DNA of 64,000 bases from a virus, in the IMG/VR virus record IMGVR_UViG_3300043446_003692, positions 1-64,000 of that record; one strand, 5' to 3'. This document shows positions 33,750 through 50,985 of this stretch, piece after piece. The position numbers were made by a program, and so were the translations under genes. Each line of letters begins with the position of its first letter. The stretch's first letter is position 1. Under the pieces are notes generated by a model. That model did not search any database and was not told the DNA's origin. It was given only the letters and a program-made list of their open reading frames with translations.

Positions 33750-36167
33750 ATGGCAAACAAAATTCAAATTAAAAGATCAACAGCCAACGCGACGGTCACA
33801 GGTCTCGCGAATGGTGAGTTGGCGTTTACACAGGCTAGTAATACACTCCACATCGGTTTACCTGATGGTTCGGGCACGCTTCGTATCGGCGGCGCGCAGT
33901 ATCCTGGCACACTAACTAACTCTCATGCTCTCGTCGCTAATGCGACTGGTGGCATTGACAAGGTTATTACTGCAAATCTAGTTGTAGATAAGGTTTACGC
34001 AAATGGTTCATTCGGAACTGGCGCGCAGCTGCTTGCATCTGGTGGTACAGGAGCGAATGCTTACTGGGTCGATGCTGGCACACTAGCCACTCAACCAGCT
34101 GGTTCAAACACTCAGGTACAGTATAACAATTCTAATACTCTTGGAGCTTCTGCAGGCTTCACGTTTAATCAGGCATCTAATACCCTTTTCGTAAATGGTG
34201 AAATTCAGTCAACAACAGCATATTTTACTTCGACTGTATATCTTGGTGCATCTGGCACAATTAACGAAACAGATTTTAGTGGTCGAGCAAATACTGCTAA
34301 AACTGCTAACAATGCAACTTACGCTTTTGGTAAATCAGAAAACCAACTTAATGTTAATAGCGCATTAACTTCTAACAACTCCACTTATGCGTTTGGAAAA
34401 AGCGAAGGCGATTTGAATGTTAACAGTGCACTAACATCAAATAACTCAACATACGCTTTCGGTAAGTCAGAGTCTGCGTTAAATGTTAACAATGCCGTAA
34501 CTGCTAACGATGCTAGCTACCTGGGTGGTACTGCAGCTTCAGGTTACGCTAAACTTGCTGGTAACCAGATATTTACTGGTAATAATACTTTCAACGCAAG
34601 ACTTATTGTAAATGGCGCATTCGTTGCTAATGGTTCGACTGGTGTAGCTGGTCAAATTCTTACTTCGAATGGTTCTTCGATTTACTGGACTGATCAAACA
34701 ACAGTAAGCAACGTTGCAGCTAATTCGCTTACTTCGAACGCTGTAACGATTAATGATACGATTTCCATCGGTAACTCGAGCGTTAACGTATTTGCTAACT
34801 CAACAACTCTAAAAATTTCAGACACTGGTAGTTCTGTATCCCTAAACTCTTCTGCGTTTAGTGGCACTGCTAACAACGCAACTTATGCATTCGGCAAGTC
34901 AGAATCTGGTCTCAACGTTAACAGTGCACTAACTTCTAACAATTCCACCTATGCGTTCGGTAAGAGCGAAGGCGGTCTTAATGTTAACAGCGCAGTATAT
35001 GTTTTGGCTAACAATGGAATTGTTTCCAACAGCTCTGGTGTATTTGTTAAGGCAGGAACGGGCGTTACTGTTAATGCTACTGGTGTTCATATCGGTCAGT
35101 CTGTTGGAACAACAGATAACGTAACTTTCAACGACATTATTATTAACGGAAATGCTGCTCTTGGTTCTAGCACTTCCGATATTGTTTCGATTAATGGTCT
35201 TGTCAATACTGACATTATTCCATCTGCTAACGTAACATATAGCCTCGGTAATACAACGAACCGTTGGAATGATCTTTATCTTTCTGGTTCGACAATTTAC
35301 CTAGGCAACGCTTCAATTAGCGAAGTTGGTGATGGTGCTGTAAGTATTGGAAATGTTAATATCACTACAACAGCTGAAATTGCTGATCTTGTAGTAACTG
35401 GTAATTCTAAGCTAGGTAATAATTTTGGTAGTGACGTTGTAAGTTTCATTTCAACAGTCAATACAGAAATTACTCCTTCTTCGAATATCACTTACGATCT
35501 AGGTCGTATTGATTTACGTTGGAGAGCAGTATACGCTAACACTGTTAATGCTACTGCTGCTTATATCGCTGGCGACCTGCAGGTTGGTGGTAACGTATAC
35601 GTTACTGGTAACGTAGCTTCTCTTAATGTTCAAAACCTTTCGGTAACTGACCCACTTATCCATCTCGCTTCTAACAATGAAACTTCTGATCTGTTAGATA
35701 TTGGTTTTGTCGGTCATTATAGCGACGATGCTGGTTCAACTAAACGTCATGCTGGTTTCTTCCGTGATGCATCAGATGCTGGTGTGTTTAAACTGTTTAC
35801 AAATCTCGTACAAGCAGATTTGGATACAGCCAATGCTACTATCATTAACACAGCAGCTGCTTCTTATGCAACAGCGAGCCTCGTCGCATACCTTAATTCT
35901 GGCGGACTGATTTCCAACAGCACAGCAGTAACAATTACTGCTAATTCTACATTGGCTGTTAGCATCACAGCGAATTCGCTGACGCTTTCTAGCCCGCTAG
36001 TAGGAACTTCTGGTGGTACTGGTCTAAACAGCTATACCGCTGAAGATCTTCTTGTTGCTAACGCGAGCAATGGATTCCGTAAACTGGGTCTTGGAACATC
36101 TGGATATGTTCTGCAGTCGAACGGATCTGCTCTCGTATACGACACGCTCGATGGTGGCACATTCTAA
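33750..36167 (+). CDS. Long fibre protein with 22-residue repeats
   Basis: 805 residues. It starts MANKIQIKRSTANATVTGL and NGELAFTQ, the 'I-Q-I-K-R-S...GELA-x-T' start shared by many phage fibres and tropism proteins. The shaft includes five copies of a unit like TYAFGKSESALNVNSALTSN (nucleotides about 34315-34510 and 34870-35000). The last part (LAVSITANSLTLSSPLVGTSGGTG, then LLVANASNGFRKLGLG) is a capping block, and it ends LDGGTF. No S74 chaperone is present. GGGGGAA precedes the ATG. Confidence 0.75.
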   Translation: MANKIQIKRSTANATVTGLANGELAFTQASNTLHIGLPDGSGTLRIGGAQYPGTLTNSHALVANATGGIDKVITANLVVDKVYANGSFGTGAQLLASGGTGANAYWVDAGTLATQPAGSNTQVQYNNSNTLGASAGFTFNQASNTLFVNGEIQSTTAYFTSTVYLGASGTINETDFSGRANTAKTANNATYAFGKSENQLNVNSALTSNNSTYAFGKSEGDLNVNSALTSNNSTYAFGKSESALNVNNAVTANDASYLGGTAASGYAKLAGNQIFTGNNTFNARLIVNGAFVANGSTGVAGQILTSNGSSIYWTDQTTVSNVAANSLTSNAVTINDTISIGNSSVNVFANSTTLKISDTGSSVSLNSSAFSGTANNATYAFGKSESGLNVNSALTSNNSTYAFGKSEGGLNVNSAVYVLANNGIVSNSSGVFVKAGTGVTVNATGVHIGQSVGTTDNVTFNDIIINGNAALGSSTSDIVSINGLVNTDIIPSANVTYSLGNTTNRWNDLYLSGSTIYLGNASISEVGDGAVSIGNVNITTTAEIADLVVTGNSKLGNNFGSDVVSFISTVNTEITPSSNITYDLGRIDLRWRAVYANTVNATAAYIAGDLQVGGNVYVTGNVASLNVQNLSVTDPLIHLASNNETSDLLDIGFVGHYSDDAGSTKRHAGFFRDASDAGVFKLFTNLVQADLDTANATIINTAAASYATASLVAYLNSGGLISNSTAVTITANSTLAVSITANSLTLSSPLVGTSGGTGLNSYTAEDLLVANASNGFRKLGLGTSGYVLQSNGSALVYDTLDGGTF

Positions 36168-36190
36168 CATAGCACATAGGTGATTATACT

Positions 36191-36403
36191 ATGAATCCTG
36201 AAATTGTCAATATGTATATTGCTAGATTAATTAAAGAGATCGAGGAGCTGACTAAAAATCGGCTCCTCGTCGAAACCCAACTTCAATATACTGAAAAACT
36301 CAACGCGGAACTTCAAGCGCAATTGAAACAGACCGAAGCTGAGATAGAAAAGAATAACAAAAAGATAAATAAAAAAGAAGTAAATACTTCTGACACTTTT
36401 TAA
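36191..36403 (+). CDS. Small coiled-coil protein
   Basis: 70 residues. Nearly the whole chain is helical with heptads (MYIARLIKEIEELTKNRLL, then YTEKLNAELQAQLKQTEAEI) and a lysine/asparagine-rich end. AGGTGA precedes the ATG. Like the gene at 31458 it directly precedes a long fibre gene, which suggests a matched chaperone or coiled-coil connector. The end of the gene contains GAAGTAAATACTTC. Confidence 0.65.
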   Translation: MNPEIVNMYIARLIKEIEELTKNRLLVETQLQYTEKLNAELQAQLKQTEAEIEKNNKKINKKEVNTSDTF

Positions 36404-36436
36404 TCGCGGTAAATACCGTTCGCTGAAGGAGCCAAT

Positions 36437-39253
36437 ATGGCTAATAATTTGATTCAGATCAAACGCACATCCGTATCTGGACGTGCAGCCAACACAGTAA
36501 CTCTCCCAAATGCTGGCGAATTAGCGCTGAACATGGCGGATGGAATTCTTTATTCCACCAATGGCGTCGCAGTATTTGAAATTGGTGCGAACAATACGAA
36601 CGTCAATGTTACTAATACGCTTACTGTCGCAAAACTTTCAGCAAACGGGACCATTGGTTCAGCTGGTCAGTATCTTACATCAAATGGTACCACAGTATAT
36701 TGGTCGAGTCCTGGAGTTGCATCCGTTAATGTTGATGCGCAGTATATTTGGACTAATACTCACACCTTCAGCAATACTGTATATTTGAATGCTGTTTCTG
36801 CAAATGGTGATTTAGGATCCGCTGGTCAAGTTTTAACATCTAATGGTTCAGACACCTATTGGTCCAGTGTTGGTGGATCAGGTACGGTAACTTCTGTTGA
36901 TTCAGGTAATGGTCTTACTGGAGGTCCAATTACTGGTTCGGGGACATTATCTGTTCTCGCAAACACTGGTATCGTAGCTAACTCAACTGGTGTGTTTGTT
37001 GATGCAACTTATATTGGAACATTAAGCGCAAACAATGCTTCGTATTTGGGTGGTACTGCTGCAGCTGGTTATCAAACAACAGCAGGACTTGCAGCCAATG
37101 TTGCTACTTTAACATCAAATAATGCTACCTATGCATTTGGTAAAACCGAAGGCGCATTGAACGTCAACAGTGCGTTAACATCGAACAGTACAACATATCT
37201 CGGCGGTAATACAGCATCTGATTTAAATACTTACGCTGATAATAAGGCGGCTAATGCTTATTCGAATGCAATTGCATATTCGGGCAACGCAGCGCAAGCA
37301 TATACTAATGCTGTATCTTATGTTGATGGTAAATCTTATGTTAATACCAGTCAACTATCATCTAATCTTTCTAACTATCAAACAACAGCTGGTTTAGCTA
37401 GCAATGTAGCTACACTCACATCAAATAATGCAACATATGCGTTTGGAAAAACGGAGGGTGCGCTGAATGTCAATAGCGCATTAACTTCTAACAATTCAAC
37501 CTATGCTTTTGGCAAATCAGAATCCGCTCTCAATGTTAACTCAGCACTAACTTCGAACAACTCAACATATGCATTCGGCAAGTCAGAGTCAGGTCTTAAC
37601 GTAAACAGTGCATTAACTTCTAACAATTCAACCTATGCTTTTGATAAAACAGAAGGCAATTTGAATGTTAACTCAGCACTAACCTCTAACAACTCGACAT
37701 ACGCCTTTGGCAAGTCAGAGTCAGCCCTAAATGTTAACAGTGCACTAACTGCAAATAATTCTAACAATCTTGGTGGCGTCGCAGCTTCTGGGTATCAAAC
37801 TACTGCAGGATTGGCTTCGAATGTAGCAACACTTGCTGCTAACTCTGCAACATATGTTCTCGCTAACAACGGTATTGTTTCTAATGCATCTGGTGTATTC
37901 GTTAACGGTAACACTGGTCTAGTTGTAAATGCCACTGGCGTACATGTTAATTCAACTTACATTGGGACATTAAGTGCAAACAATGCTTCGTATCTTGGTG
38001 GAACCATTGCTTCTGGTTATCAAACGACAGCGGGGCTTGCAGCTAATGTTGCTACTTTAGCAGCTAACTCTGCAACATATTTGGGTTCTTCTATCAATTC
38101 AGGTAATAGTACTGGCATATACAGTACAGGAACCATATCTGCCAGTGGTATCGTTAGTGGTTTAGAACTCACTTCAACACTAGCGAGCGGAGATGAGGGT
38201 GGGCAAATCAACTTAACTAAACCACCTAATGGCACCCTTGATGGTGGCATCACAATTGATGCTTATCAAAATAGAGTAAGAATTTTTGAACAGGGTGGAA
38301 GTGCAAGAGGCGCATATATTGATTTAACAGGTTGTGCAGCTGGAGTAGGAACAAATCTTCTTGGTGGGGCTGGCTCTGGAACTGTAACTTCAGTTGGTTC
38401 TGGTAATGGTCTTACTGGCGGTCCTATCACTGGCGCTGGAACTCTTTCAGTTCTTGCTAATAATGGTATCGTTGCTAACTCTACTGGCGTATTCGTTAAT
38501 GGTAATACTGGTCTTGTAGTAAATTCTACTGGCGTACATGTTAATTCAACTTACATTGGGACATTAACTGCAAATAATGCAACTAATCTCGGTGGTGTTG
38601 CAGCTGCCTCGTATGTTCAAAATACAGACAGTCGTACACTTTCAGGAAACTTAGCGTTTTCTGGCGCAAACAACACATTTAGCGGTAACTTAACTATTTC
38701 AGCGACTGGCGAACTTATTATTGCAGCTGGTGCTGGTATTTACGCTAATGGTGGACTAGGAACAGCTGGACAAGTATTAACATCAAATGCTTCTTCTGTC
38801 TATTGGTCAACAATTTCAGCTGGTGGTGGCGCAACTCTGTCAAACGAAACAGCTAGCGCTACTACACATTATCCAGCTATGTCTACTACCTCATCTGGTA
38901 CATGGTCTTCGGCTATTGTTTCAACAACAAAATTATACTTTACACCATCTACTGGCCAGCTGAATGCGACCATTTTTAACTCTTTATCTGACGCCAAAGT
39001 TAAAAAAGATATCGTAACATTTACAAACGCGCTTGGTGTGATTGATAATATCAGAGGTGTTCGATACAACTGGATTGATAATGGTAAACCATCTATCGGT
39101 GTTATCGCTCAGGAAATCGAAAAGTATTTGCCAGAACTTGTTTCGAAGAGTCCCGAAGGTGAGATGTCAGTTAACTATGGTGGCTTGGTTGGCGTATTGA
39201 TTGAAGCTATCAAAGAGTTAAACGAGAGAATCAATAAGCTAGAGGGTAAGTGA
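36437..39253 (+). CDS. Long fibre protein with 22-residue repeats and S74 auto-cleaving chaperone
   Basis: 938 residues. It starts with IQIKRTS...NAGELALN. The shaft has six copies of the TYAFGKSESALNVNS-type unit (about 37110-37760), alternating with LGG-x-A-A-S-G-Y-Q-T-T-A-G-L blocks. The end (about 850-938) is an intramolecular chaperone/peptidase S74 domain: SDAKVKKDI with the expected Ser and Lys, GVRYNWI, SIGVIAQEIEKYLPELV and a terminal helix ELNERINKL. The chaperone helps trimer folding and is then released by self-cleavage near Ser851. AAGGAG precedes the ATG. Confidence 0.85.
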   Translation: MANNLIQIKRTSVSGRAANTVTLPNAGELALNMADGILYSTNGVAVFEIGANNTNVNVTNTLTVAKLSANGTIGSAGQYLTSNGTTVYWSSPGVASVNVDAQYIWTNTHTFSNTVYLNAVSANGDLGSAGQVLTSNGSDTYWSSVGGSGTVTSVDSGNGLTGGPITGSGTLSVLANTGIVANSTGVFVDATYIGTLSANNASYLGGTAAAGYQTTAGLAANVATLTSNNATYAFGKTEGALNVNSALTSNSTTYLGGNTASDLNTYADNKAANAYSNAIAYSGNAAQAYTNAVSYVDGKSYVNTSQLSSNLSNYQTTAGLASNVATLTSNNATYAFGKTEGALNVNSALTSNNSTYAFGKSESALNVNSALTSNNSTYAFGKSESGLNVNSALTSNNSTYAFDKTEGNLNVNSALTSNNSTYAFGKSESALNVNSALTANNSNNLGGVAASGYQTTAGLASNVATLAANSATYVLANNGIVSNASGVFVNGNTGLVVNATGVHVNSTYIGTLSANNASYLGGTIASGYQTTAGLAANVATLAANSATYLGSSINSGNSTGIYSTGTISASGIVSGLELTSTLASGDEGGQINLTKPPNGTLDGGITIDAYQNRVRIFEQGGSARGAYIDLTGCAAGVGTNLLGGAGSGTVTSVGSGNGLTGGPITGAGTLSVLANNGIVANSTGVFVNGNTGLVVNSTGVHVNSTYIGTLTANNATNLGGVAAASYVQNTDSRTLSGNLAFSGANNTFSGNLTISATGELIIAAGAGIYANGGLGTAGQVLTSNASSVYWSTISAGGGATLSNETASATTHYPAMSTTSSGTWSSAIVSTTKLYFTPSTGQLNATIFNSLSDAKVKKDIVTFTNALGVIDNIRGVRYNWIDNGKPSIGVIAQEIEKYLPELVSKSPEGEMSVNYGGLVGVLIEAIKELNERINKLEGK
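37110..37760 (+). repeat. 66-base repeats coding for the fibre shaft (TYAFGKSE units)
   Basis: Six copies here and five in the upstream fibre gene (34315-34510 and 34870-35000) encode near-identical 22-residue units: T-Y-A-F-G-K-S/T-E-x-x-L-N-V-N-S-A-L-T-S-N-N. Third bases differ between copies, so the protein is conserved more than the DNA. Both genes could exchange shaft segments by recombination. Confidence 0.85.
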
Positions 39254-39254
39254 A

Positions 39255-40433
39255 ATGCCATCTGGGTTTAAATACGGTGAAGATGAATTTGATCGTGTTT
39301 TTATGACCGACTACGAAATTGTAGATCGATTCGTAGGGAATAGATTATGGACATGGGGTGTCAATGGAGAAGGTAACTTAGGCGAAAATACATCAACTAA
39401 TAGATCATCACCAGGAACAACTGCTGGTGGTGGTGTTAACTGGGTTCAAGTTTCAGCAGGTGGCACAACGGGAAATAGATATTCAGCCGCGATAAAAACC
39501 GATGGTACATTATGGACTTGGGGAGGAAATGTTGCTGGTAAATTGGGTGATGGAACAACAACTTCACGTTCATCGCCTGGAACAACTGCTGGTGGCGGCA
39601 CTAACTGGAAACAAGTTGCTTGTGGTGACACTAATATGGCTGCTGTAAAAACAGACGGTACTTTATGGACTTGGGGCGCAGCAACTTCTGGTGGCTTAGG
39701 CGACGGAACAACAACTTCTAGATCTTCTCCAGGCACAACTGCTGGCGGTGGCACTAACTGGAAACAAGTTGCGGCTGGATCAAATCTTATGGGCGCAATT
39801 AAAACTGATGGCACACTTTGGACTTGGGGTTCTGGTGCAAATGGAGGTTTGGGTGATGGAACAACAACTGCCAGATCTTCTCCTGGCACAACAGCTGGTG
39901 GTGGAACTACCTGGAAACAAGTAGCTGCTACAGTTGGGCGTATGGTAGCGGTTAAAACAGATGGTACGTTGTGGACATGGGGAAGAAACACAAGAGGACA
40001 ATTGGGTGACGGTTCATCAACTTCTCGTTCTTCTCCTGGCACAACTGCAGGTGGCGGAACAACTTGGAAATCTGTTGATACAGCTGATGGCACAAACGAC
40101 GGACACACTGCAGCCATTAAAACTGATGGAACATTATGGACTTGGGGGGAAAATACTGCTGGCGCATTGGGCGACGGTTCAACAACCTCTCGATCTTCTC
40201 CAGGCACAACTGCAGGTGCAGGTTCTAATTGGAAAATGGTTTCTTGTGGTTATCGCAATACAGCCGCTGTAAAAACCGACGGCACATTATGGACTTGGGG
40301 GTCTGCAATTAATGGTCAATTGGGTGACGGAACCACAACTTCTCGTTCTTCTCCAGGAACAACGGTTTCAAACTCAAATCAATGGAAAACAGTAAAATCA
40401 GCAAACTTCTATATGCTTGCTATAGCAGATTAA
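39255..40433 (+). CDS. RCC1-like seven-repeat propeller protein, copy 1
   Basis: 392 residues. After a 30-residue N-terminus (ending DRFVGN) it has exactly seven repeats of about 51 residues with a consensus TLWTWGxNxxGxLGDG, RSSPGTTAGGGTNWKQV and AAIKTDG. LWTWG-x-N-x2-G-x-LG is the RCC1/ATS1 blade core. Seven repeats suggest one complete beta-propeller. Propellers bind proteins or glycans, so a receptor-binding tip is likely. Related genes lie at 41080 and 42813. Confidence 0.85.
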   Translation: MPSGFKYGEDEFDRVFMTDYEIVDRFVGNRLWTWGVNGEGNLGENTSTNRSSPGTTAGGGVNWVQVSAGGTTGNRYSAAIKTDGTLWTWGGNVAGKLGDGTTTSRSSPGTTAGGGTNWKQVACGDTNMAAVKTDGTLWTWGAATSGGLGDGTTTSRSSPGTTAGGGTNWKQVAAGSNLMGAIKTDGTLWTWGSGANGGLGDGTTTARSSPGTTAGGGTTWKQVAATVGRMVAVKTDGTLWTWGRNTRGQLGDGSSTSRSSPGTTAGGGTTWKSVDTADGTNDGHTAAIKTDGTLWTWGENTAGALGDGSTTSRSSPGTTAGAGSNWKMVSCGYRNTAAVKTDGTLWTWGSAINGQLGDGTTTSRSSPGTTVSNSNQWKTVKSANFYMLAIAD

Positions 40434-40443
40434 AGAGGAAAAA

Positions 40444-41076
40444 ATGACAGCATATGTTTTAGTTCACAACGGATTTGTAATCAATGGTCCACGAGCTTGG
40501 AACTATCGCTCTTTCGAATCTTCATTGCAGGAAGATTGTGAAATCGAATACAAACTTCCTATGAGCAAGACCGATGAAGAAATTATCGAGATTGACGAAA
40601 ACACCAAGATTTATGCAGCAGAGTTAGTGTATCCTAACTACAATGCTAAAATTGAATACCCTCATGGTCCTTTTTGGGATTTTTCAACTGGCAAAGCTAT
40701 TGGAACATTTCAGGTGTTACCAACACCAATCGAGTTAATAAAAAACACGTTGAAGGCGAAAGTTGCTGAAATTCGCTGGCGTAAAGAAATTGCTGGTTTA
40801 ATAACAAACGTACAGGACAATGATGTGTTCGTTGATACAGCCAGAGAAGTTCGTGATGTGTTTTTACAAAAGTATATCCTAATGAACGAAAACGAAACTG
40901 TTCAATGGAAATTTAATTCTGGCTGGGTTACTCTTACACGAACAGAAGTAAATACGATAGCAACTGCGGTGGCTAATCATATTCAATCGCAGTTTGATTG
41001 GGAAATTGCAAAACATGCAGAAATTGATGCTTGTTCAACAGCAGAAGAACTAGACGCTATTGTTCTAGAGGAATGA
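40444..41076 (+). CDS. Tail fibre assembly-like protein (DUF4376-like C-terminus)
   Basis: 210 residues. The N-terminal half (AYVLVHNGFVINGPRAWNYR) is a small beta domain. The second half reads KAKVAEIRWRKEIAG, QDNDVFVDTAREVRDVFLQ and ETVQWKFNSGWVTLTRTEV, then a long helix, as in DUF4376-type fibre assembly and tail proteins. AGAGGAA precedes the ATG. It lies between two propeller genes, so it may chaperone or anchor them. Confidence 0.6.
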   Translation: MTAYVLVHNGFVINGPRAWNYRSFESSLQEDCEIEYKLPMSKTDEEIIEIDENTKIYAAELVYPNYNAKIEYPHGPFWDFSTGKAIGTFQVLPTPIELIKNTLKAKVAEIRWRKEIAGLITNVQDNDVFVDTAREVRDVFLQKYILMNENETVQWKFNSGWVTLTRTEVNTIATAVANHIQSQFDWEIAKHAEIDACSTAEELDAIVLEE

Positions 41077-41079
41077 TAG

Positions 41080-42321
41080 ATGCCTACATTTAATTTCACA
41101 GACAACGATGGTATTGATATTGGTAACAAGTATGTTACCAAAGAATATGTTATGGATGTTTATCCAAATTTAATACCTTCAATGGCTTCTCCTGATTTGT
41201 GGACTTGGGGGTCGAATACAGATGGTTCATTGGGGATAGGCACAACTACAGCTAGATCTTCTCCTGGAACAACAGTAGGTGGTGGTGCTACTTGGACTCA
41301 AGTTGTAATTGGCGGCTCGCAAAACGGATACACATTAGCTGGTGTTAAATCAGACGGCACATTATGGACTTGTGGTTATAATTTTAAGGGTGGTTTGGGC
41401 GATGGGTCAACAACATCTAGATCATCCCCAGGAACTACCGCTGGTGGTGGTACAACTTGGAAACAAGTTGCCATGCAGATGAACGGAGGCATCTTTATGA
41501 GCGCCGTTAAAACAGATGGAACGCTTTGGACGTGGGGCTACGATGGATATGGTGTTCTTGGAGCAGGAACAAATAACACAAGCCGTTCTTCTCCAGGAAC
41601 AACAGCTGGTGGTGGTACTAATTGGAAACAAGTCGCTTGTGGATACGGAGCGGCTGTTGGGGCAGTAAAAACAGATGGAACATTGTGGACGTGGGGAACC
41701 AATGGTGCTGGTCAATTGGGAGATGGTACTACTAGCACTAGATCATCTCCAGTAACAACAGCTGGTGGTGGTACTAACTGGAAACAGTTATCTATGGGTG
41801 CATCTTTTTCTGCCGCTATTAAAAATGATGGAACATTATGGACATGGGGAAGCGGCGGCGGCGGTACATTAGGAACAAATAATACAACAAACAGATCATC
41901 TCCTGGAACAACATCTGGAGGTGGCACTAACTGGAAACAAGTTTCAGGCGGTTCTTATCACTGCACAGCAATCAAAACTGATGGTACATTATGGACTTGG
42001 GGAACAAATACTAACGGGTCTTTAGGAACTGGTGATACAACCGATAGGTCTTCTCCTGGTACTACTGTTGGAGGTGGAACTGATTGGAAAACATTAGCAT
42101 TTAATCAAGGAACATATACTACAGCAGCGCTTAAAACAGATGGTACATTATGGACTTGGGGTGGGAATGCAGCTGGTACTTTGGGTACGAATAATACTAC
42201 ATCAAGATCATCACCAGGTACAACAGTAGCAAATTTTACTTCTTGGAAAAGCGTTTGTATGGCGGGTGGCTTCACAAGCAAGGGCGGCGCTGTTGCAATT
42301 GCAGAACAAGGTAACTGGTGA
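41080..42321 (+). CDS. RCC1-like seven-repeat propeller protein, copy 2
   Basis: 413 residues. A 40-residue N-terminus (with NKYVTKEYVMDVYPNL) is followed by seven LWTWG/LWTCG repeats with the RSSPGTTAGGGTNWKQV linker. It is closely related in plan to the copies at 39255 and 42813 but has diverged at the loop positions (for example GYDGYGVLG and GSGGGGTLG). Conserved strands with variable loops are as expected for a ligand-binding propeller under selection. GAGGAA precedes the ATG. Confidence 0.85.
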   Translation: MPTFNFTDNDGIDIGNKYVTKEYVMDVYPNLIPSMASPDLWTWGSNTDGSLGIGTTTARSSPGTTVGGGATWTQVVIGGSQNGYTLAGVKSDGTLWTCGYNFKGGLGDGSTTSRSSPGTTAGGGTTWKQVAMQMNGGIFMSAVKTDGTLWTWGYDGYGVLGAGTNNTSRSSPGTTAGGGTNWKQVACGYGAAVGAVKTDGTLWTWGTNGAGQLGDGTTSTRSSPVTTAGGGTNWKQLSMGASFSAAIKNDGTLWTWGSGGGGTLGTNNTTNRSSPGTTSGGGTNWKQVSGGSYHCTAIKTDGTLWTWGTNTNGSLGTGDTTDRSSPGTTVGGGTDWKTLAFNQGTYTTAALKTDGTLWTWGGNAAGTLGTNNTTSRSSPGTTVANFTSWKSVCMAGGFTSKGGAVAIAEQGNW

Positions 42322-42816
42322 ATGGCATTCATTAAAACATTGACGATTGATGATTTTTATACTCCTGAAGGCGCAACTAATCTTTCGCTAGTTGCCAGAG
42401 GATTGCCATTTGTACAGAAAGATTTAGGTAGAGAAATCGAAAACTTCAATCACGTTCCTGATGACATCTCCGAAATCATTTCTAATACAATTGCCCGTAA
42501 AGTTGAAGTTGATATGGATCGTTCTGGTGTATTCCGTTTTCCAGAAGTATTTGTACACTTTGAAGACTTTGAGTCGACCAAAGATTGGATTCTCGTTGTT
42601 GCGTTAGATCATACATATTTTAATATCTATGAACATAAAGATGGTGCAAGAAATGCTCTTGAGGGATATGAGTTCCCATATCGAGATTTGTTTCAGTGGA
42701 ATGTGAGAGTAAATTACGAATTAGAGCCAGGACAAGCAGTGTTTTTTCGCCCATGGCTTTTTCATTCGTTCACAGGAAACCTAGTTCAGATCTTTAGATT
42801 AAGAGACGTAGAATGA
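42322..42816 (+). CDS. Double-stranded beta-helix protein, possible oxygenase-like
   Basis: 164 residues. The pattern of strands with a charged GQAVFFRPWLFHSFTGNLVQIF end (F-x-R-P-x3-H near 143-148) resembles the last strands of cupin/2OG-oxygenase folds. A first H-x-D motif is uncertain (DHTYFNIYEH at 96-105 is a candidate), so activity is unproven. It lies between propeller copies 2 and 3, starting right at the stop of copy 2 and overlapping copy 3 by four bases. A modifier or partner of the propellers is possible. Confidence 0.45.
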   Translation: MAFIKTLTIDDFYTPEGATNLSLVARGLPFVQKDLGREIENFNHVPDDISEIISNTIARKVEVDMDRSGVFRFPEVFVHFEDFESTKDWILVVALDHTYFNIYEHKDGARNALEGYEFPYRDLFQWNVRVNYELEPGQAVFFRPWLFHSFTGNLVQIFRLRDVE

Positions 42817-44012
42817 CCGTAGGATTTACCACTGTTTATAACGGAAGAACTATTGAAGTTGATGATCTCTTGATGAAAAGAGAGTATTTCAATGATGGTA
42901 CACTTTACACATGGGGTTCCGCAGCTTATGGAGCTATGGGTGATGGAACTATAACATCAAGAAGTTCGCCAGGTACAACTGCAGGCGCTGGGTTAAATTG
43001 GAAATCTGTTTCAAATGGATTTGGAACAACGGTTGGTGTTAAAACTGATGGAACTTTGTGGACTTGGGGACATAATTTAAGAGGTCAGTTAGGGAACAGC
43101 AGCACTACTTCCCGTTCTTCTCCAGGGACCACTACAGGTGGTGGAACTAACTGGATGCAAGTTTCATGTGGTTATCAATCTGTAGGTGCCATTAAATCAG
43201 ATGGAACATTATGGACTTGGGGAAATAATTTATCGGGTCAATTGGGAGACGGAAGCACAACTTCTCGATCTTCCCCAGCACAAGTTGCTGGTGGTGGAGC
43301 CAACTGGAAACAAGTTACTAGTGGTCTTGTACAAATGGCTGCAATTAAAACAGACGGCACATTATGGACATGGGGTTCTGGAGCCAATGGTGGATTAGGA
43401 AATAGTGGTACAGCATCAAGATCATCACCTGGCACAACCTCTGGTGGTGGAACAAATTGGAAGCAAGTTTCTGCGGGAAATGCATATTATATGGGCGCTG
43501 TCAAAACAGACGGCACACTTTGGACTTGGGGGCTAAACGATTTCGGTCAGTTAGGCGCTGGTAATACAACAAATAGGTCTTCTCCAGGAACAGTTGCTGG
43601 TGGGGGCACTAATTGGAAACAAATTTCACTTGGTTATTATTCATGGTCTGCAATAAAAACAGATGGCACTCTTTGGACTTGCGGTTATAATAGTTTCGGT
43701 CAATTGGGTAATGGTGCATCGGGAGCAGCAGCACATCGTTCTTCCCCAGGAACAGTTGCTGGCGGGGGCACTAATTGGAAAGAGACTTCATCTAATTTAG
43801 CTTGTACTTTAGCAATTAAAACAGATGGCACATTATGGACTTGGGGCTATAATCTGTATGGATTTTTAGGTACTGGTAATACAACTTCTAGATCATCTCC
43901 AGGAACAGTCGTTGGTGGCATTACTAATTGGAAAAGCACTATTCAATCAACAGGCGGATTTACTGCTGAATATAATAATACAATAGGAGCTATTACTGAT
44001 CTGACTATATAA
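42813..44012 (+). CDS. RCC1-like seven-repeat propeller protein, copy 3
   Basis: 399 residues. A 29-residue N-terminus (DDLLMKREYFNDG) precedes seven repeats (TLYTWG once, TLWTWG five times, TLWTCG once) with RSSPGT linkers. All three propeller proteins share an acidic start and a final D/K/R-E-Y or related segment just before blade 1, perhaps the attachment signal to the tail. The start overlaps the preceding gene. A 26-base gap separates it from the sulfotransferase gene. Confidence 0.85.
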   Translation: MTVGFTTVYNGRTIEVDDLLMKREYFNDGTLYTWGSAAYGAMGDGTITSRSSPGTTAGAGLNWKSVSNGFGTTVGVKTDGTLWTWGHNLRGQLGNSSTTSRSSPGTTTGGGTNWMQVSCGYQSVGAIKSDGTLWTWGNNLSGQLGDGSTTSRSSPAQVAGGGANWKQVTSGLVQMAAIKTDGTLWTWGSGANGGLGNSGTASRSSPGTTSGGGTNWKQVSAGNAYYMGAVKTDGTLWTWGLNDFGQLGAGNTTNRSSPGTVAGGGTNWKQISLGYYSWSAIKTDGTLWTCGYNSFGQLGNGASGAAAHRSSPGTVAGGGTNWKETSSNLACTLAIKTDGTLWTWGYNLYGFLGTGNTTSRSSPGTVVGGITNWKSTIQSTGGFTAEYNNTIGAITDLTI

Positions 44013-44038: not shown

Positions 44039-44812
44039 ATGAAGCGTTATCATTTTATTTCAGGGTTGCCACGTTCTGGTTCAACCCTTCTTACTTCAAT
44101 CCTCAATCAAAACCCAAAATTTCATTCTAACATTTCTAATCCTTTGGCTAGATTTGTGAGAAGAATCATCACAGAATCCCACGCTGGTCCTGGGTATCAT
44201 TTGCAGTGTCCAGAGCCGAAACGATTCGAGTTAATTCAAAACCTAGTTGCAACATATCATTCACATATTGATAAAGAAGTTTGCTTCAACACTAATCGTG
44301 GCTGGTCTTCGCTCCTGCCGATTCTTGAGCAAACACATCCTGAGTCAAAAGTTATTTGTTGCGTTCGTGATATTCGTTGGGTTTTAGATTCTTTTGAAGT
44401 ATTATTTCGAAAAAATCCATTTACGATGTCGACTTTGTATGGTGAGGAACAGGCTCAATCAGTTTATACGAGAGCTTATTCTCTTATGTCACCAGGAAAC
44501 ACAGTTCGTTTTGCATATGACTCGTTGAAAGAAGCTATTACTGGACCACAAAAGAAAATGTTGATGATTCTCGAGTACGATCAGCTAGCTAAAAACCCAG
44601 AGCAAACGATGCGCGCTCTATATAACTTCATTGGCGAACCATATTTTGACCATGACTTTAATAATGTTGAAGCCTCGTGGGATGAATATGATCTTGAGGC
44701 AGGAATTATTGGTTTACATAAAATCCGAAAAGAAGTAAAATATATACAAAGGGAGCCTATACTTCCTCCTGATCTTTGGAACGAGTTTTCGAATCTAGAA
44801 GTTTGGCGATGA
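44039..44812 (+). CDS. Sulfotransferase family protein
   Basis: 257 residues. SGLPRSGSTLLTS (8-20) is the PAPS 5'-phosphosulfate-binding loop. CCVRDIRWVLDSF supplies the R-D-x2-x2-x-x-S type 3'-phosphate-binding element (about 107-119). A later LILEYDQLAKNPEQTMRAL block matches the sulfotransferase helix. It should transfer sulfate from PAPS to a hydroxyl or amine; the acceptor is unknown. An APS-kinase-like gene three kb downstream could supply PAPS. GGAG precedes the ATG; the stop overlaps the next start. Confidence 0.85.
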   Translation: MKRYHFISGLPRSGSTLLTSILNQNPKFHSNISNPLARFVRRIITESHAGPGYHLQCPEPKRFELIQNLVATYHSHIDKEVCFNTNRGWSSLLPILEQTHPESKVICCVRDIRWVLDSFEVLFRKNPFTMSTLYGEEQAQSVYTRAYSLMSPGNTVRFAYDSLKEAITGPQKKMLMILEYDQLAKNPEQTMRALYNFIGEPYFDHDFNNVEASWDEYDLEAGIIGLHKIRKEVKYIQREPILPPDLWNEFSNLEVWR

Positions 44813-45150
44813 TATTCAAAACACATCATGTGAAGGCGATCACGATCGAGAGAGACATAGAAGTTTCCGATGTGCCTTGTCAGACAATCGACTGCACTCT
44901 TTGTTGTGAAATGTTGTCTCCATATCTTACCGAAGCTGAGATGAAATCGGGCAAGTATATCTTTACCTTTATGAACAACGACGCTGATCCATTTACGCCT
45001 GTTATCGCAGTTCCGCGAATCGAAACTGGCTGCATCTATTTTGGTGCTGATCGCAAATGCAAAATCTACGAAGATCGTCCTCTAGCTTGCAGACAATTCG
45101 ATTGCCGCAAGGGGCACCATCCAAAAATATCAAATCAATTCGAAGAGTGA
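44809..45150 (+). CDS. YkgJ-like Cys-cluster (zinc/iron) protein
   Basis: 113 residues, starting at the ATG overlapping the sulfotransferase stop (ATGA). It has DCTLCCEMLSPYLTEAE and, later, GCIYFGADRKCKIYEDRPLACRQFDC. The CxxCC...C-x6-Y-x2-RP-x2-C-x3-C pattern is the YkgJ family (PF03692) cluster, which probably binds a metal or Fe-S centre. YkgJ proteins appear in oxidoreductase or modification settings; the exact reaction is unknown. It is co-transcribed with the sulfotransferase and a methyltransferase. Confidence 0.7.
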   Translation: MIFKTHHVKAITIERDIEVSDVPCQTIDCTLCCEMLSPYLTEAEMKSGKYIFTFMNNDADPFTPVIAVPRIETGCIYFGADRKCKIYEDRPLACRQFDCRKGHHPKISNQFEE

Positions 45151-45157
45151 GGTTGTT

Positions 45158-45706
45158 ATGAAAATTAATATTGGTGCTGGTGATACCAGATATGATGGAT
45201 TTGTAAATTGCGACTACGACGCGAGATGTAAGCCAGATTTTATTTTTGACATGGAAAAAGATGTTTGGCCATTTGAGGATAACACAGTCGAGCAGGTGAT
45301 CGCTCATCATGTTCTTGAACATATGGGTGAGGGATACTTTCACGTTATGAAAGAAATGTATCGTGTATGCAAACACGGCGCATTAATTGACATTCGCGTA
45401 CCGCATCCACGCCATGACTATTATTTAAACGACCCAACGCATCGTCGCCCAATTACGCCCGATGGTCTATCTCTATTCAGTAGAAAGTACAACGATGCTT
45501 GCATTGAACAAAACGCAGCTGCCTCGCGTCTCGGTTACTACTTCGGTGTTGATTACGAAGTGGCAGATGTAAACGAGATCCCCGATCCATTATATTTAAA
45601 AGCATTTGATGGAACGCAAGCAGACCAAGCTCGTCGTTACATTCACGAACATAATAATATCGTAATGGAATATCATATTCGTTTGGTGGTTATAAAAAAT
45701 GGATGA
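45158..45706 (+). CDS. SAM-dependent methyltransferase (class I, type 11)
   Basis: 182 residues. The start KINIGAGDTRYDGFVNCDYD is motif I with the following acidic residue, and VIAHHVLEHMGEGYFHVMKE is the type-11 'H-x-LEH' motif. A loop HPRHDYYLNDPTHRRPI follows. The size fits the family. It likely methylates a small molecule or sugar; in sugar clusters such enzymes cap glycans. GAGGTTGTT precedes the ATG. The end overlaps the glycosyltransferase start by eight bases. Confidence 0.85.
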   Translation: MKINIGAGDTRYDGFVNCDYDARCKPDFIFDMEKDVWPFEDNTVEQVIAHHVLEHMGEGYFHVMKEMYRVCKHGALIDIRVPHPRHDYYLNDPTHRRPITPDGLSLFSRKYNDACIEQNAAASRLGYYFGVDYEVADVNEIPDPLYLKAFDGTQADQARRYIHEHNNIVMEYHIRLVVIKNG

Positions 45707-47051
45707 AAAAAAGGTAGAAACGGATCCGCTGTTTCTAGTCATCAAGTCGTTGACATCTGATGAACGTCGCAAAACAGCTGTTATACTACTGGACGAAATG
45801 TTTAAACTAGCCAAAACCGTTCAACAGTTTGAGTCGGTTGGTAGAGCTGCACTTGAAGTAAAGTATGCAGAACTGTATCTCAAATGCGCTGAAATTTGCT
45901 ACTCGATGATGAGAACTTCAGAGCAGCTTTATATTGCTCGTGAAAACTTGTACAAGGCATACAATCTCAACAATTATCCAGAAAAAGCTCTGTTTTATAT
46001 TGATTTAAATTTGCAAGTCACACCCGACGATCCAGACACGCTCGCGCAAAAAGCATTTAATCTATCGCTGATGGGCGACCGTAAGGGCGCAGAAGCTATC
46101 ATTGAGAGTTTGATAGCTCGTAAAGTTAAATTGGATAAAGAGGGTTCTTTAGACTATGCGCTCTGCGGTAAGTATTTGCGCATGGGTCAAACTGCCAAAG
46201 GAATCGATCTGTTCATTAATACGTTCAAAAAGAAAAATCATTTATTCGAAGATGCATTAAAGCTGAAGTTTTGGAATGGCGGCGCGTATCCTGGTAAAAC
46301 GATTGTTATCAACGGCGAAGGTGGTATCGGCGACGAACTTATCAATATTCGTTTCCTTGATAATTTAAAACAGTTAGGTATGAATCCTATATTGTATTCA
46401 TCATGGCATATGTATCGTCCCGACATGGTAGGATTGTTTAAACGCCACGGATATGAAGTTACAACGAATCACTTATTTTTTCCTAAAGATGCGCTGTGGA
46501 CGCATATGATGAGTTTGCCAGGATATCTTGATTTGAAAGAAGAACAGCTCTGGACTGGTTCATATTTGAAACCACTGCGTCAGGAAAAGAACAAACTAGA
46601 AAGCAAGAAGTTCAAAATTGGTATCAAGGCGAATGGTAATCCGCACTTTGAGCAGGACGTGTACCGTCGCATTCCGTTTGATCAGCTGATGGGTGTTATG
46701 CCCGAAGACGTTGAAGTATATTATATCGATACGGAAAGAGAATACGAAGGCACAATCTCACTGAAGAATCGTATTCAGTCTTGGGAAGATACGCTCGACT
46801 TTATCGACCAAATGGATATGATTGTTTCTTCTTGTACTAGTCTTGTACACGCAGCTGGCGCTATGGGTAAGCGAACAATTGTTTGCGTTCCGATTGCTGA
46901 GTATTATATCTGGACTTCTACCAGAACAAATGAAACGACGCCATGGTATGGCGACAATTTTACTGTGTTGAAACAAACAAAATTAAGAAGCTGGGATGAG
47001 CCTCTCGCTCGCGCGCGAGAACTGATACTGGAGGAAATGAATGCAAATTGA
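45699..47051 (+). CDS. TPR-glycosyltransferase (heptosyltransferase/GT9-like)
   Basis: 450 residues. Residues about 60-190 are helical TPR-like repeats (YIARENLYKAYNLNNYPEKA, LMGDRKGAEAIIESL). The catalytic part has NGEGGIGDELINIRFL (near 206), IGIKANGNPHFE and MDMIVSSCTSLVHAAGAMGK (about 371-390), the GT-B/GT9 C-terminal donor motif of ADP-heptose and TPR-linked transferases. It should move a sugar to a glycan or protein. The nearby ADP-heptose genes make ADP-heptose a plausible donor; this is inferred. Confidence 0.75.
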   Translation: MDEKKVETDPLFLVIKSLTSDERRKTAVILLDEMFKLAKTVQQFESVGRAALEVKYAELYLKCAEICYSMMRTSEQLYIARENLYKAYNLNNYPEKALFYIDLNLQVTPDDPDTLAQKAFNLSLMGDRKGAEAIIESLIARKVKLDKEGSLDYALCGKYLRMGQTAKGIDLFINTFKKKNHLFEDALKLKFWNGGAYPGKTIVINGEGGIGDELINIRFLDNLKQLGMNPILYSSWHMYRPDMVGLFKRHGYEVTTNHLFFPKDALWTHMMSLPGYLDLKEEQLWTGSYLKPLRQEKNKLESKKFKIGIKANGNPHFEQDVYRRIPFDQLMGVMPEDVEVYYIDTEREYEGTISLKNRIQSWEDTLDFIDQMDMIVSSCTSLVHAAGAMGKRTIVCVPIAEYYIWTSTRTNETTPWYGDNFTVLKQTKLRSWDEPLARARELILEEMNAN

Positions 47052-47628
47052 AGCACATTTTCCAACACTGATTGGCGTTCATCAGGTTGATCAAACTGTA
47101 GTCGAAAAGACATTGATGGGAGTGCGGCAGTGGGAAACTACAGACAGCTACAAAAGATGCGTAGAGTATTCAAAGAGCGAAAATCTCAACACTTCATATC
47201 ATACGTATCATGATATTCTTGGTGAGATCAAGCTGAGTGATTTGCGCAAAGAGATAGAAAACGCTGTTGAAGAATATTCGTATGTTTATACTTCTAATTC
47301 AAAAGACTACAGGATTGACTCATGGATTAATTATTTTGAGCCAGGAAATTACGAGGCTGAACATAATCATTTTGGTAATTACATCTCTGGCGTTTATTAT
47401 GTTCAAGCTACACCCGATACTGGTAATTTCGAATTCTACGAGCCAGCGAAACAAAAAGGATTGTGGCAATCTTTGTATTCTGATAAGATGAAGTCTTCGT
47501 CAACGTATTCACCTAAAACTGGAAAAATGATTTTGTTTCCTTCGTATCTCGATCACTCTGTATTAAGGAATATGTCATCGTCAACACGGATTTCAATCGC
47601 CTTCAATATTCATGTGGAGTTAAAATGA
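47041..47628 (+). CDS. Fe(II)/2-oxoglutarate oxygenase family protein
   Basis: 195 residues. The sequence EAEHNHFGNYISGVYYV (about 106-121) gives the first His pair; LFPSYLDHSV (165-174) gives the distal His172; RISIAFN (183-189) gives the 2-oxoglutarate-binding Arg. This is the putative 2OG-Fe(II) oxygenase pattern common in T4-like marine phages (PF13759-type). It probably hydroxylates a protein or sugar. GGAGGAA precedes the ATG; the stop overlaps the next gene. Confidence 0.8.
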   Translation: MQIEAHFPTLIGVHQVDQTVVEKTLMGVRQWETTDSYKRCVEYSKSENLNTSYHTYHDILGEIKLSDLRKEIENAVEEYSYVYTSNSKDYRIDSWINYFEPGNYEAEHNHFGNYISGVYYVQATPDTGNFEFYEPAKQKGLWQSLYSDKMKSSSTYSPKTGKMILFPSYLDHSVLRNMSSSTRISIAFNIHVELK

Positions 47629-48428
47629 AAATACTTATTATGGGTCTACCAGGATCTGGTAAAACAACTTTGGCTGAAGAACTTGTGCAGCAATTTACTG
47701 AACAAGGAATGCCCGTTAATTGGCATAACGCAGATTCCGTTAGAAAAATATTTGATGATTGGGATTTTTCTGAAGCGGGTAGAATTCGTCAAGCAGAACG
47801 TATGGGCAGATTTGCTAATGTTGATAAGAGAGAAGGTATTTTTTCTATCTGTGATTTTATATGCCCAACCGAAAACCTAAGAAACATATTTGCAGATGGT
47901 GGGAAACCAGATTACATTATCTGGATGGATACGATCAAGAAAGGTCGCTATGAAGATACCAACAAATTGTTTGAGCCACCAACATACTATGATTATCGTA
48001 TTACTAACTTTGATGCCAAAGGTTGGGCGAAGCGTCTATTAAAAGATATTATAAATGGTGAGAAGCCAGAACAGTTTGATTTACGCAAACCAACTGTGCA
48101 AATGCTTGGGCGTTGGCAACCATGGCACGATGGTCATCAAGCATTGTTCGAACGCGCATTAGCTAAGACTGGTCAAGTTTGCATTATGATTCGCGACTGT
48201 CAAAATTGGAATGACAGCAATCCGTTTGACGTAGCCGATGTTGAAGAGCGTATTCATAAAGCTCTTGGACCCAAGTTCTATGGGAAGTATACGGTACAGG
48301 TAGTACCCAATATCGTTAACATCACCTATGGTCGCGATGTCGGTTATAAAATCGAACAAGAAACATTTGATGACGCTACGCACGCCATATCAGCTACGAA
48401 GATTCGAGAAAGTCTCGGACTGAAATAA
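47625..48428 (+). CDS. APS-kinase-like P-loop / HxGH nucleotidyltransferase fusion
   Basis: 267 residues. Residues 1-140: Walker A GLPGSGKTT (7-15), then NWHNADSVRKIFDDWDF and FSEAGRIRQAERMGR, the APS-kinase substrate region. Residues 155-267: QMLGRWQPWHDGHQ with HDGH at 168-171, and ISATKIRESLG at the end, the cytidylyl/adenylyltransferase ISxTxxR motif. APS kinase makes PAPS, the sulfate donor for the sulfotransferase here. The second domain is not an ATP sulfurylase by its motifs; a nucleotide-activating role is likely. Its 3' end overlaps the opposite-strand HldD gene. Confidence 0.7.
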   Translation: MKILIMGLPGSGKTTLAEELVQQFTEQGMPVNWHNADSVRKIFDDWDFSEAGRIRQAERMGRFANVDKREGIFSICDFICPTENLRNIFADGGKPDYIIWMDTIKKGRYEDTNKLFEPPTYYDYRITNFDAKGWAKRLLKDIINGEKPEQFDLRKPTVQMLGRWQPWHDGHQALFERALAKTGQVCIMIRDCQNWNDSNPFDVADVEERIHKALGPKFYGKYTVQVVPNIVNITYGRDVGYKIEQETFDDATHAISATKIRESLGLK

Positions 48429-49173
48429 ATTTATAATCGTAGTGTTTTCTGGCGCAAGTATAGGTTTGATACTTATTTTCTAATTGTTTAGGAAATGGTA
48501 TTTCTTCTATAAACGCATCATACTTACGAGCGACGAGGCTAGCTACGTATTGAAACGAAATCGGGTTATTTGTACCAACATCATAAATTCCCGATTCTCG
48601 TTCCATTGTCATACAATTTATAGCGTCATCAACGTGGATAAAATCACGGAAATAATCTTTTGACCCTTCAAATATCTTAATTATACCAGTTTCTTTTGCT
48701 TGTTTTGTAAACTGATGTATTGGGCTGGCTTGTGAACCCTTACGATCTTCGCCATTGCCATATACATTAAAGAATCTACAGCCTACTACATTGCTGAACC
48801 TATCAATGTTATCAAGAACCCAGTAATCTACAGTCGCCTTAGATAAGGCGTAGTAATTGAGAGGATTTATCTGATACGTCAGCGAGTTTCCATAAACAGA
48901 AGCCGAAGAAGCATACGTTACAGGAATTTTGTGTTCGATAGCATACTCGAATAATGACACACTGTATTTGATATTGAGATTGTGGATACGTTCTAAATTG
49001 CTTTCTGTAGTGCTTGATACAGCGCCAAGGTGATATATTTTTGTGATATTTTTCCATGGAAAATCGAGGTCGAAAATTTCCATATGGTTTTTAAAATCAA
49101 GAGCAATAATATTATCTTGTTTTTTTATTAAATTACTACCAATAAATCCATCAGATCCTGTTATCAATATCAC
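48394..49173 (-). CDS. hldD: HldD-like ADP-heptose 6-epimerase (NAD-dependent epimerase)
   Basis: 259 residues (E. coli HldD: 310). It has GSDGFIGSNL (7-16) for NAD binding, ASSASVYGN and NYYALSKATVDYW for the Ser-Tyr-Lys catalytic set, GCRFFNVYGNGED and YFRDFIHVDDAI. These blocks match RfaD/HldD and related epimerases. The GTG start at 49173 is supported by AAGGAG eight bases upstream. It is the last gene of the minus-strand cassette and overlaps the end of the plus-strand kinase fusion by 35 bases. Confidence 0.8.
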   Translation of the reverse strand: MILITGSDGFIGSNLIKKQDNIIALDFKNHMEIFDLDFPWKNITKIYHLGAVSSTTESNLERIHNLNIKYSVSLFEYAIEHKIPVTYASSASVYGNSLTYQINPLNYYALSKATVDYWVLDNIDRFSNVVGCRFFNVYGNGEDRKGSQASPIHQFTKQAKETGIIKIFEGSKDYFRDFIHVDDAINCMTMERESGIYDVGTNNPISFQYVASLVARKYDAFIEEIPFPKQLENKYQTYTCARKHYDYKFISVRDFLESS

Positions 49174-49465
49174 TGAAGTACTCCTTATCGCTCATAGCTT
49201 TGTCGTCAATCCAAATATCGTATTTGGGTTTACGAAAATTTATAGAAGTATATTTTACGCCCCAGCTAGCTAATTGTTTCTTAGTAAACTCTGACCAATC
49301 TTTTCCGCTGTTACCGCCACGCGCAGTCCAGTAATGAATTTCATTACCCTGTTCGTATAATTTATTGAAATGAGCAATACGCTTTACATAAGGCTCGGCG
49401 TATTCGTAGTTGTTGGTTACAGTGCTAGTACAAATCGTGCCGTCAATATCAACGTAGTATATCAT
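49151..49465 (-). CDS. Small HAD-superfamily phosphatase
   Basis: 104 residues. YVDIDGTICTS (4-14) is HAD motif I (DxDGT); HYWTARGG is the Thr motif II; KPKYDIWIDDKA supplies Lys and the DD motif. It lacks a cap domain, so it is a minimal HAD. Its place between HldE and HldD suggests the step normally done by GmhB (removing a phosphate from heptose bisphosphate), but it is much shorter than GmhB (about 190). Its start overlaps the end of HldE by 17 bases and its end overlaps HldD. Confidence 0.7.
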   Translation of the reverse strand: MIYYVDIDGTICTSTVTNNYEYAEPYVKRIAHFNKLYEQGNEIHYWTARGGNSGKDWSEFTKKQLASWGVKYTSINFRKPKYDIWIDDKAMSDKEYFSDIDNRI

Positions 49466-50606
49466 CTAACACCTTTGTTGTTGAGTAACCGTTGACATAT
49501 GGAATAATAACAACTTCTGCCAAATCTTTTCCTATCACCATATCTGGTGTATAGTCGCCGCCTTTTGTAATTATATCTGGTTTAATGCTTTTGATTAATT
49601 CGTATGGTGTATCTTCGTCAAAAATAATTACCTGGTCAACACAACCTATAGACTGAAGAACAGCTCGTCTATCATACTGATTGTTAATTGGGCGACACGC
49701 GCCCTTCAATCTTTTTACAGACTTATCTGAATTAAGACCAACGATTAGTTTACCGCCTAACTTTTTCGAAGCTCGTAAATATTCGATGTGACCTTTGTGG
49801 AGGATATCGAAGCAACCATTGGTAAATACTACCTTTGTTTCTTTTAAATCCTCGGGCTGCAAAATATATGTTCCCATTTTGGTAACAGAAATACTCGCGA
49901 GCGTATTCGCGCGCTCGCATGCATGCCTCAATGTAAAACCATGATCCAAATAATGAGCCATAGCAGCCAAAAATACATCTCCAGCACCAGTTACATCAGC
50001 TACTTGTCGTTTTTCTCCAGGAATTGTACCAGTAAATTCCTTAGAGTTAATGTAAACACCATCACCGCCCAGTGTGATTACGATAGCACCGATATTGAAA
50101 TTGCGGCGAATAATTTCACAGTTTTCGAATTCTTTGTGACCCGTAAATTCAAAAAACTCTTTTTTATTTAATTTTACGATATCCGCACCAACATAACGAT
50201 GTATTTTTTTCTTTGGGTCGACAATAACTTTGACGCCAGCTTTCTTGAAGTTTTCTATAATATCTTCAGAGTGGTGAACATGACCCTTGTTATAATCAGA
50301 AATAATAAGCCAGTCAATACCGATCGGATTGTACTCTGTAAAATCGTTTACTTCATAAGTTTCATTGTCGCTACGAAAAACAATTCTATTATCGACAACG
50401 TAGCGCGTTTTAGTCGAACTGCAGCCACAGTCAAAATATGGATTGGTTCCTAGCGCAGTTAGATTGGTAATAACATTCCAAGCTCCACCTAACCGTTTTT
50501 CAATCTTTTCTTCGTTAAAAATTGGAATCGGTGTTTCTGGAGATATTTTATTATATGAACCGTGAATATACTCGTCGCTAATACCATCGCCAATCACATA
50601 AATCAT
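49449..50606 (-). CDS. hldE: HldE-like heptose-7-phosphate kinase / heptose-1-phosphate adenylyltransferase
   Basis: 385 residues (E. coli: 477). Residues 1-250 are a ribokinase-type kinase: GDGISDEYIHG, LGGAWNVITN, DYNKGHV and DVTGAGDVFLAAM. Residues about 265-385 are the adenylyltransferase: FTNGCFDILHKGH with HxGH, GLNSDKSVKRLKG, INNQYDRRAVL and ITKGGDYTPD. The domain order equals HldE/RfaE. Together they phosphorylate D-glycero-beta-D-manno-heptose-7-phosphate and adenylylate the 1-phosphate. Isomerase GmhA is not seen, so the host may supply the substrate. It overlaps the cupin stop (ATGA). Confidence 0.9.
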   Translation of the reverse strand: MIYVIGDGISDEYIHGSYNKISPETPIPIFNEEKIEKRLGGAWNVITNLTALGTNPYFDCGCSSTKTRYVVDNRIVFRSDNETYEVNDFTEYNPIGIDWLIISDYNKGHVHHSEDIIENFKKAGVKVIVDPKKKIHRYVGADIVKLNKKEFFEFTGHKEFENCEIIRRNFNIGAIVITLGGDGVYINSKEFTGTIPGEKRQVADVTGAGDVFLAAMAHYLDHGFTLRHACERANTLASISVTKMGTYILQPEDLKETKVVFTNGCFDILHKGHIEYLRASKKLGGKLIVGLNSDKSVKRLKGACRPINNQYDRRAVLQSIGCVDQVIIFDEDTPYELIKSIKPDIITKGGDYTPDMVIGKDLAEVVIIPYVNGYSTTKVLDDILR

Positions 50607-50959: not shown

Positions 50960-50985
50960 TATTACCTCCATGTTGCTCATAGTCT

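Follow-up and report, generated by a model that had tools for sequence, protein, structure and literature searches.

We report that a T4-like phage, probably of aquatic bacteria, carries three genes in its tail-fibre block, each encoding a short acidic N-terminus followed by exactly seven RCC1 repeats, and that these proteins are, as we infer, probably tail-fibre-linked adhesins that bind the host receptor, rather than the DNA-condensing proteins suggested by their database name. The first of the three proteins is predicted to form a closed seven-bladed propeller; among relatives the genes keep a stereotyped order behind an S74 tail fibre, each position retains its own N-terminus while the propellers have lost orthology, and the most variable positions of the blades map, by strand order, to a single face. 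The existence of three such genes, as in the original prediction, is confirmed by our analysis, with coordinates, strand and repeat number all correct. The interpretation that accompanied it, a set of alternative or combined receptor binders on the tail, is supported only in part, because the fold and the link to tail fibres are borne out by prediction and by comparison of genomes, whereas receptor binding and virion location remain inferences for this phage.

Results

Three RCC1 repeat genes in the tail-fibre block

The window, that is the whole stretch of 64,000 nucleotides analysed here, is part of a 70,209-bp virus record which carries a T4-like tail module, with matches to the gp5-OB, gp6, gp8, baseplate wedge, sheath gp18 and tube gp19 profiles. 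The sheath is nearest to that of Stenotrophomonas phage DLP6 (59%) and to those of Sinorhizobium and Caulobacter T4-like phages. The genes and parts considered are the following:

36437..39253 (+), tail fibre with a C-terminal S74 intramolecular chaperone, directly upstream of propeller gene A (PF13884, E 4e-13, at aa 851-902; PHROG tail fibre and long tail fibre distal subunit hits)
39255..39344 (+), class A N-terminal putative anchor peptide, about 30 aa, delimited by alignment of class A N-termini (two short predicted helices, 12-16 and 19-27, of low confidence)
39255..40433 (+), RCC1-like protein A, 392 aa, predicted seven-bladed propeller (PF00415 x7, PF25390)
40444..41076 (+), DUF4376 gene, conserved between A and B (PF14301, E 4e-12; phrog_10508, 'tail fiber protein', E 3e-16)
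41080..41196 (+), class B N-terminal putative anchor peptide, about 39 aa (DIGNKYVTKEYVMDVYP)
41080..42321 (+), RCC1-like seven-repeat protein B, 413 aa (PF00415, PF25390)
42322..42816 (+), protein predicted to be double-stranded beta-helix, 2-oxoglutarate-oxygenase-like, between B and C
42813..42899 (+), class C N-terminal putative anchor peptide, about 29 aa
42813..44012 (+), RCC1-like seven-repeat protein C, 399 aa (PF00415 x7, PF25390)

Gene ends abut or overlap (39253/39255, 42321/42322, 42816/42813). There are 21 RCC1 Pfam matches in all (7+7+7) and none elsewhere in the record; the matches are well above the curated cut-offs, with 195-202 bits against 150 for the RCC1-like domain PF25390 (E = 3e-57 to 3e-59) and 145-165 bits against 21.7 for PF00415. 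The repeats are not a product of chance, since 21 L[WY]x[WC]G motifs are present and 0 of 1000 shuffles of the pooled sequence reach even 3. However, the claim that the framework residues TLWTWG, RSSPGTT and NWKQV are fixed is overstated: RSSP is found in 21/21 repeats and LWT[WC]G in 20/21, but TLWTWG in 16/21, RSSPGTT in 16/21 and NWKQV in only 6/21. The acidic N-termini are real (net charge -2 to -3) and fall into three distinct classes, A, B and C. Of the two intervening genes, the first is a DUF4376 gene, as proposed. The second had been described as encoding a beta-helix fold; its predicted fold is a double-stranded beta-helix of 2-oxoglutarate-oxygenase type and not a parallel beta-helix, with an invariant H79-x-E81...H148, a model pLDDT of 92 and Foldseek matches to PtlH, SnoN and PHYHD1.

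Predicted fold

Structure prediction had been set beforehand as a test that could refute the propeller reading, and the test is passed clearly. AlphaFold2, run on protein A with an alignment of 50 sequences, gives a closed propeller of 28 strands (pLDDT 89.4, pTM 0.87), following the two short helices of residues 1-30, which are modelled with low confidence. Foldseek and VIA-align place the model with the RLDs of HERC2 and HERC1, UVR8, RPGR, RCC1 and BLIP-II (VIA-align Z of 53.7 for HERC2-RLD, 50 for UVR8, about 48 for RCC1 and 32.5 for BLIP-II). Among viral models (BFVD), the best matches are uncultured Caudovirales RCC1 proteins, and annotated tail fibres of Pseudomonas phages PollyC and Littlefix also match. 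The fold of B and C is inferred from the repeats and Pfam scores that they share with A. Independent support comes from the repeat number in relatives: of 140 distinct RCC1 ORFs in the fetched loci, 126 have 7, 14, 21 or 28 repeats, as closed propellers require. Most exceptions are short or lie near contig ends, although two apparently intact ORFs have six repeats, so that seven is the rule rather than an invariant. The loci were fetched by similarity to protein A, which favours seven-repeat relatives, though not those with 14, 21 or 28.

Distribution and gene order

A protein scan of IMG/VR found at least 597 stretches encoding relatives. In contrast, only 6 of 50,697 deposited phage records match protein A, the best being Synechococcus phage S-SRM01, with the same three genes, and searches of these records with the A, B and C anchors found only S-SRM01. 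No close DNA relative was found among the phage records by megablast over 20-44 kb, and a search for bacterial relatives in 84,980 genomes gave one weak hit with the patterns used.

Directly upstream of gene A lies an S74-chaperone tail fibre in 48 of 54 cases, usually overlapping by 1-8 nt, and the next gene is the DUF4376 gene in most. In 15 of 15 genomes with one seven-blade copy of each class the order is A<B<C. Moreover, in two relatives (loci L028 and L039 of the fetched set) collagen repeats, RCC1 propellers and the S74 domain are one protein, of 1117 aa with one propeller in L028 and of 2445 aa with four propellers in L039. This ties the domain to tail fibres directly.

Separate evolution of the N-termini and the propellers

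The three classes of N-termini follow gene position. Every N-terminus is closest to one of its own class, whereas propellers are closest within the same genome in 27 of 45 cases. Mean identity between N-termini is 0.414 within a class and 0.24 otherwise; for propellers it is 0.598 within a class, 0.599 between classes and 0.701 within a genome. In permutation tests the class effect for N-termini gave 0/1000 and there was none for propellers (718/1000), while the within-genome excess for propellers gave 0/2000. Because classes were assigned from the N-termini, the position order is the independent part of this test. Against its closest relative, locus L012, the flanking genes of the window are mostly 85-95% identical (the DUF4376 gene 92%, the oxygenase-like gene 95%, and one at 67%) and the N-termini 79-82%, but the propellers are only 59-64% identical, which is the level of paralogues. 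Loci L012 and L013 are 98.2% identical in nucleotides over 9.9 kb including B and C, yet A and the fibre in front of it are only about 70% alike, a natural exchange of fibre tip plus propeller between near-identical phages.

A scan with the class B anchor returned only ORFs carrying RCC1 repeats (47 of 47 distinct ORFs), which does not support the idea that the anchor motif is a freely swapped domain. In addition, in loci L067 and L070 the A- and C-type motifs follow another domain instead of starting the protein. Thus, the motif could be a propeller cap rather than a dock.

Position of the variable sites

Over 315 blades, six positions exceed 3 bits of entropy, namely 7, 9, 10, 20, 41 and 42, and these are rich in Y, N, S, G, F and R. 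On the strand map of the model, 7-20 is the S1-S2 loop and 40-42 the S3-S4 loop, which in an antiparallel blade lie on the same face; the S2-S3 and S4-S1 loops of the other face are conserved (mean loop entropy 0.97 against 2.09). This assignment comes from strand order and not from model coordinates. Positions 41-42 align with the Trp-Arg of the GWRHT motif of UVR8, an interface loop in that protein. Between blades of one genome pN/pS is 0.18 at framework and 1.72 at variable positions, and 0.36 and 5.2, respectively, for recently homogenised pairs; choosing the variable columns by amino-acid entropy inflates their pN, however, and only the low pS there is independent.

Framework codons are the same in 66% of within-genome comparisons against 41% between genomes, a figure that reaches 94% among the 21 blades of the relative L041, where variable codons show a pN/pS of 8.6 and loop segments recur in different blade combinations. 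The L041 blades look like recombined segments, but the formal four-gamete test finds only one violation in L041 and none in the window. Recent homogenisation in the window genome itself is weak: its framework codons are only modestly more alike (0.47) than codon usage predicts (0.36), and the longest DNA shared between genes is 24 nt. A diversity-generating retroelement was also considered, without clear support: no match to the reverse transcriptase profile PF00078 was found in 10 records, most of which are genome fragments, and in the window third codon positions at variable sites vary about as much as the first two.

Discussion

The most likely explanation, which we hold with fair confidence, is that the three genes encode virion adhesins, each made of a short acidic N-terminal anchor and one closed seven-bladed RCC1-type propeller. 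In this view, the anchor is specific to the position of the gene and probably docks the protein to a particular partner on the virion, and A probably docks to the tip of the S74 fibre encoded directly upstream. The chain enters a blade at S1 and leaves after S4, both on the conserved face, so the opposite face, made of the S1-S2 and S3-S4 loops of all seven blades, would point away from an N-terminal mount. That face would carry up to 42 hypervariable positions (6 per blade) and is the likely receptor-binding surface. The propellers change much faster than neighbouring genes, are homogenised among the three genes of a genome (weakly, as far as recent events go, in the window genome) and can be exchanged with the fibre tip, as expected of a host-range module. 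The analysis itself establishes the fold, as a prediction, the gene order, the fibre fusions in relatives, the single-face hypervariability, from strand order, and the decoupled evolution of anchor and propeller. The docking partners, receptor binding, presence in the virion of this phage and combined or alternative use of the three proteins are inferred; conservation of the anchors is suggestive of docking to the fibre tip. By mass spectrometry, virion presence is known only for distant relatives of the phrog_4219 family, W70_237-239 (PMC11370258) and GAP32_001 (PMC5259590).

An alternative, which we consider unlikely, is that the propellers are structural decoration or assembly factors of the fibre or baseplate, such as spacers or chaperones, without receptor contact. 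The conserved gene order beside DUF4376 and fibre genes is compatible with this view, and the four propellers strung along one fibre in L039 could be spacers; however, hypervariability limited to one face and far above that of flanking genes is not expected of a spacer. Even less likely, in our view, is a role as DNA-organising proteins packaged with the genome, as suggested for the RCC1-type proteins of phAPEC6 (PMC7247149) and W70 (PMC11370258). RCC1, a Ran exchange factor, itself binds nucleosomes, and the propellers are basic (median pI 9.3, net charge +6.7), which suits binding of DNA but also of anionic polysaccharide; bacteria have neither Ran nor nucleosomes. Nevertheless, the genes sit in the tail-fibre block, propellers are built into collagen/S74 fibres in L028 and L039, and a DNA binder needs neither a hypervariable face nor allele exchange. 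The published link rests on the family name, and we found no DNA-binding data in those parts of the papers that were consulted. The least likely possibility, that the propellers neutralise another protein, such as an adhesin of a rival phage or a host enzyme, draws on the structural similarity to the bacterial seven-bladed inhibitor BLIP-II but is at odds with the fusion to fibres, the fibre-coupled gene order and the presence of distant relatives in virions.

More tentatively, and less likely than not, the locus may be a modular repertoire system, in which three position-fixed anchors display propellers whose blades are shuffled and homogenised by recombination between the 21 near-identical blades of a genome, while loop codons on one face diversify, giving a combinatorial binding surface without a retroelement. 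The suggestion rests mainly on L041.

RCC1-type proteins are common in aquatic viral contigs and their label, 'regulator of chromosome condensation', steers readers to the capsid. The evidence presented here moves them to the tail, as a repeat-protein adhesin scaffold with a conserved anchor and a single hypervariable face, used by many uncultured T4-like phages. If this reading is right, hundreds of metagenomic phages gain a readable host-recognition locus, and the repeat architecture offers a natural model for how phages diversify binding surfaces by shuffling blades. The claim that this use of RCC1 propellers is little described fits the literature found: published comments on the relatives speak of DNA condensation, not adhesion (PMC7247149, PMC11370258, PMC10059673), and other papers matched 'RCC1' only through culture-collection numbers and were irrelevant (PMC12906663, PMC8066274, PMC5723332, PMC3482391).

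Synechococcus phage S-SRM01 (NC_070963) has the same A-B-C anchors in gp335, gp337 and gp344, an S74 fibre upstream, a DUF4376 gene between A and B and a sulfotransferase after C; identity is about 55%, gp335 has six repeats, and the proteins are annotated only as regulator of chromosome condensation. The virion RCC1 proteins of jumbo and Vequintavirinae phages (phrog_4219: GAP32_001, W70_237-239, 121Q, phAPEC6) belong to the same repeat family and are of the same size, with several copies in most, three of them adjacent in W70. The window proteins match this profile with E 1e-39 to 1e-44, and GAP32_001 and 121Q_241 with 3e-102 and 1e-104. In 121Q and GAP32, however, the copies share one N-terminal tag (MLPFxRxxxYGN), also seen on non-RCC1 neighbours and absent from the window proteins, and the repeats are degenerate, whereas here there are three distinct anchors and near-perfect repeats. 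UVR8, the HERC2 RLDs, RCC1 and BLIP-II share the seven-bladed RCC1 fold, and the GxxHT loop that is variable here aligns with the GWRHT loop of UVR8, but these are cellular proteins with unrelated roles and only about 20-30% identity. The overall pattern, a fibre-coupled gene, a fixed anchor, a constant framework, hypervariable loops and exchange with the fibre tip, is that of the T2-type gp38 adhesins of T2, PP01 and S16, whose N-terminus docks on gp37 and whose hypervariable loops bind the receptor (PMC12892980). The gp38 gene lies behind the distal fibre gene, as gene A lies behind an S74 fibre. Yet gp38 is a polyglycine-II sandwich, no gp38 Pfam or PHROG profile matches the window proteins, and here three paralogues with a predicted RCC1 propeller scaffold stand in a row, so that they would be analogues of gp38 and not members of its family.

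In relative L041 (7811-12568), the 21 blades in three genes have a nearly identical DNA framework (94% same codons), while loop segments recur in different combinations, which is suggestive of blade shuffling. Relative L018 codes for a two-blade, 140-aa stub (1870-2292) with a class B N-terminus, directly behind an intact class B gene, and has two class C genes; possibly, this is an intermediate of duplication and decay. Two apparently intact relatives, L001:18231-19265 and L021:11512-12528, have six RCC1 repeats and may form six-bladed propellers. L039:5477-12814 is a 2445-aa fibre with four seven-blade propellers separated by collagen-like stretches and ending in S74. In L067:6705-8558 and L070:7462-9141, the class A and class C motifs are directly before the propeller, but behind an additional N-terminal domain, LamG-like by eye.

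In the window, two fibre proteins (33750-39253) have many internal repeats of the type ALTSNNSTYAFGKSE-LNVNS. Moreover, 44039-50980 is a block of surface- and sugar-modifying genes (sulfotransferase, methyltransferase, a heptose-kinase/adenylyltransferase-like PfkB + cytidylyltransferase, and cupin); S-SRM01 also has a sulfotransferase behind its third propeller gene. In phages 121Q (L084:1705-11256) and GAP32 (L083:301-2436), RCC1-like proteins and non-RCC1 neighbours (the glycine-rich 121Q_243, and GAP32_002, annotated as virion structural protein) share the N-terminal tag MLPFxRxxxYGN, which looks like a common virion-docking peptide carrying different distal domains.
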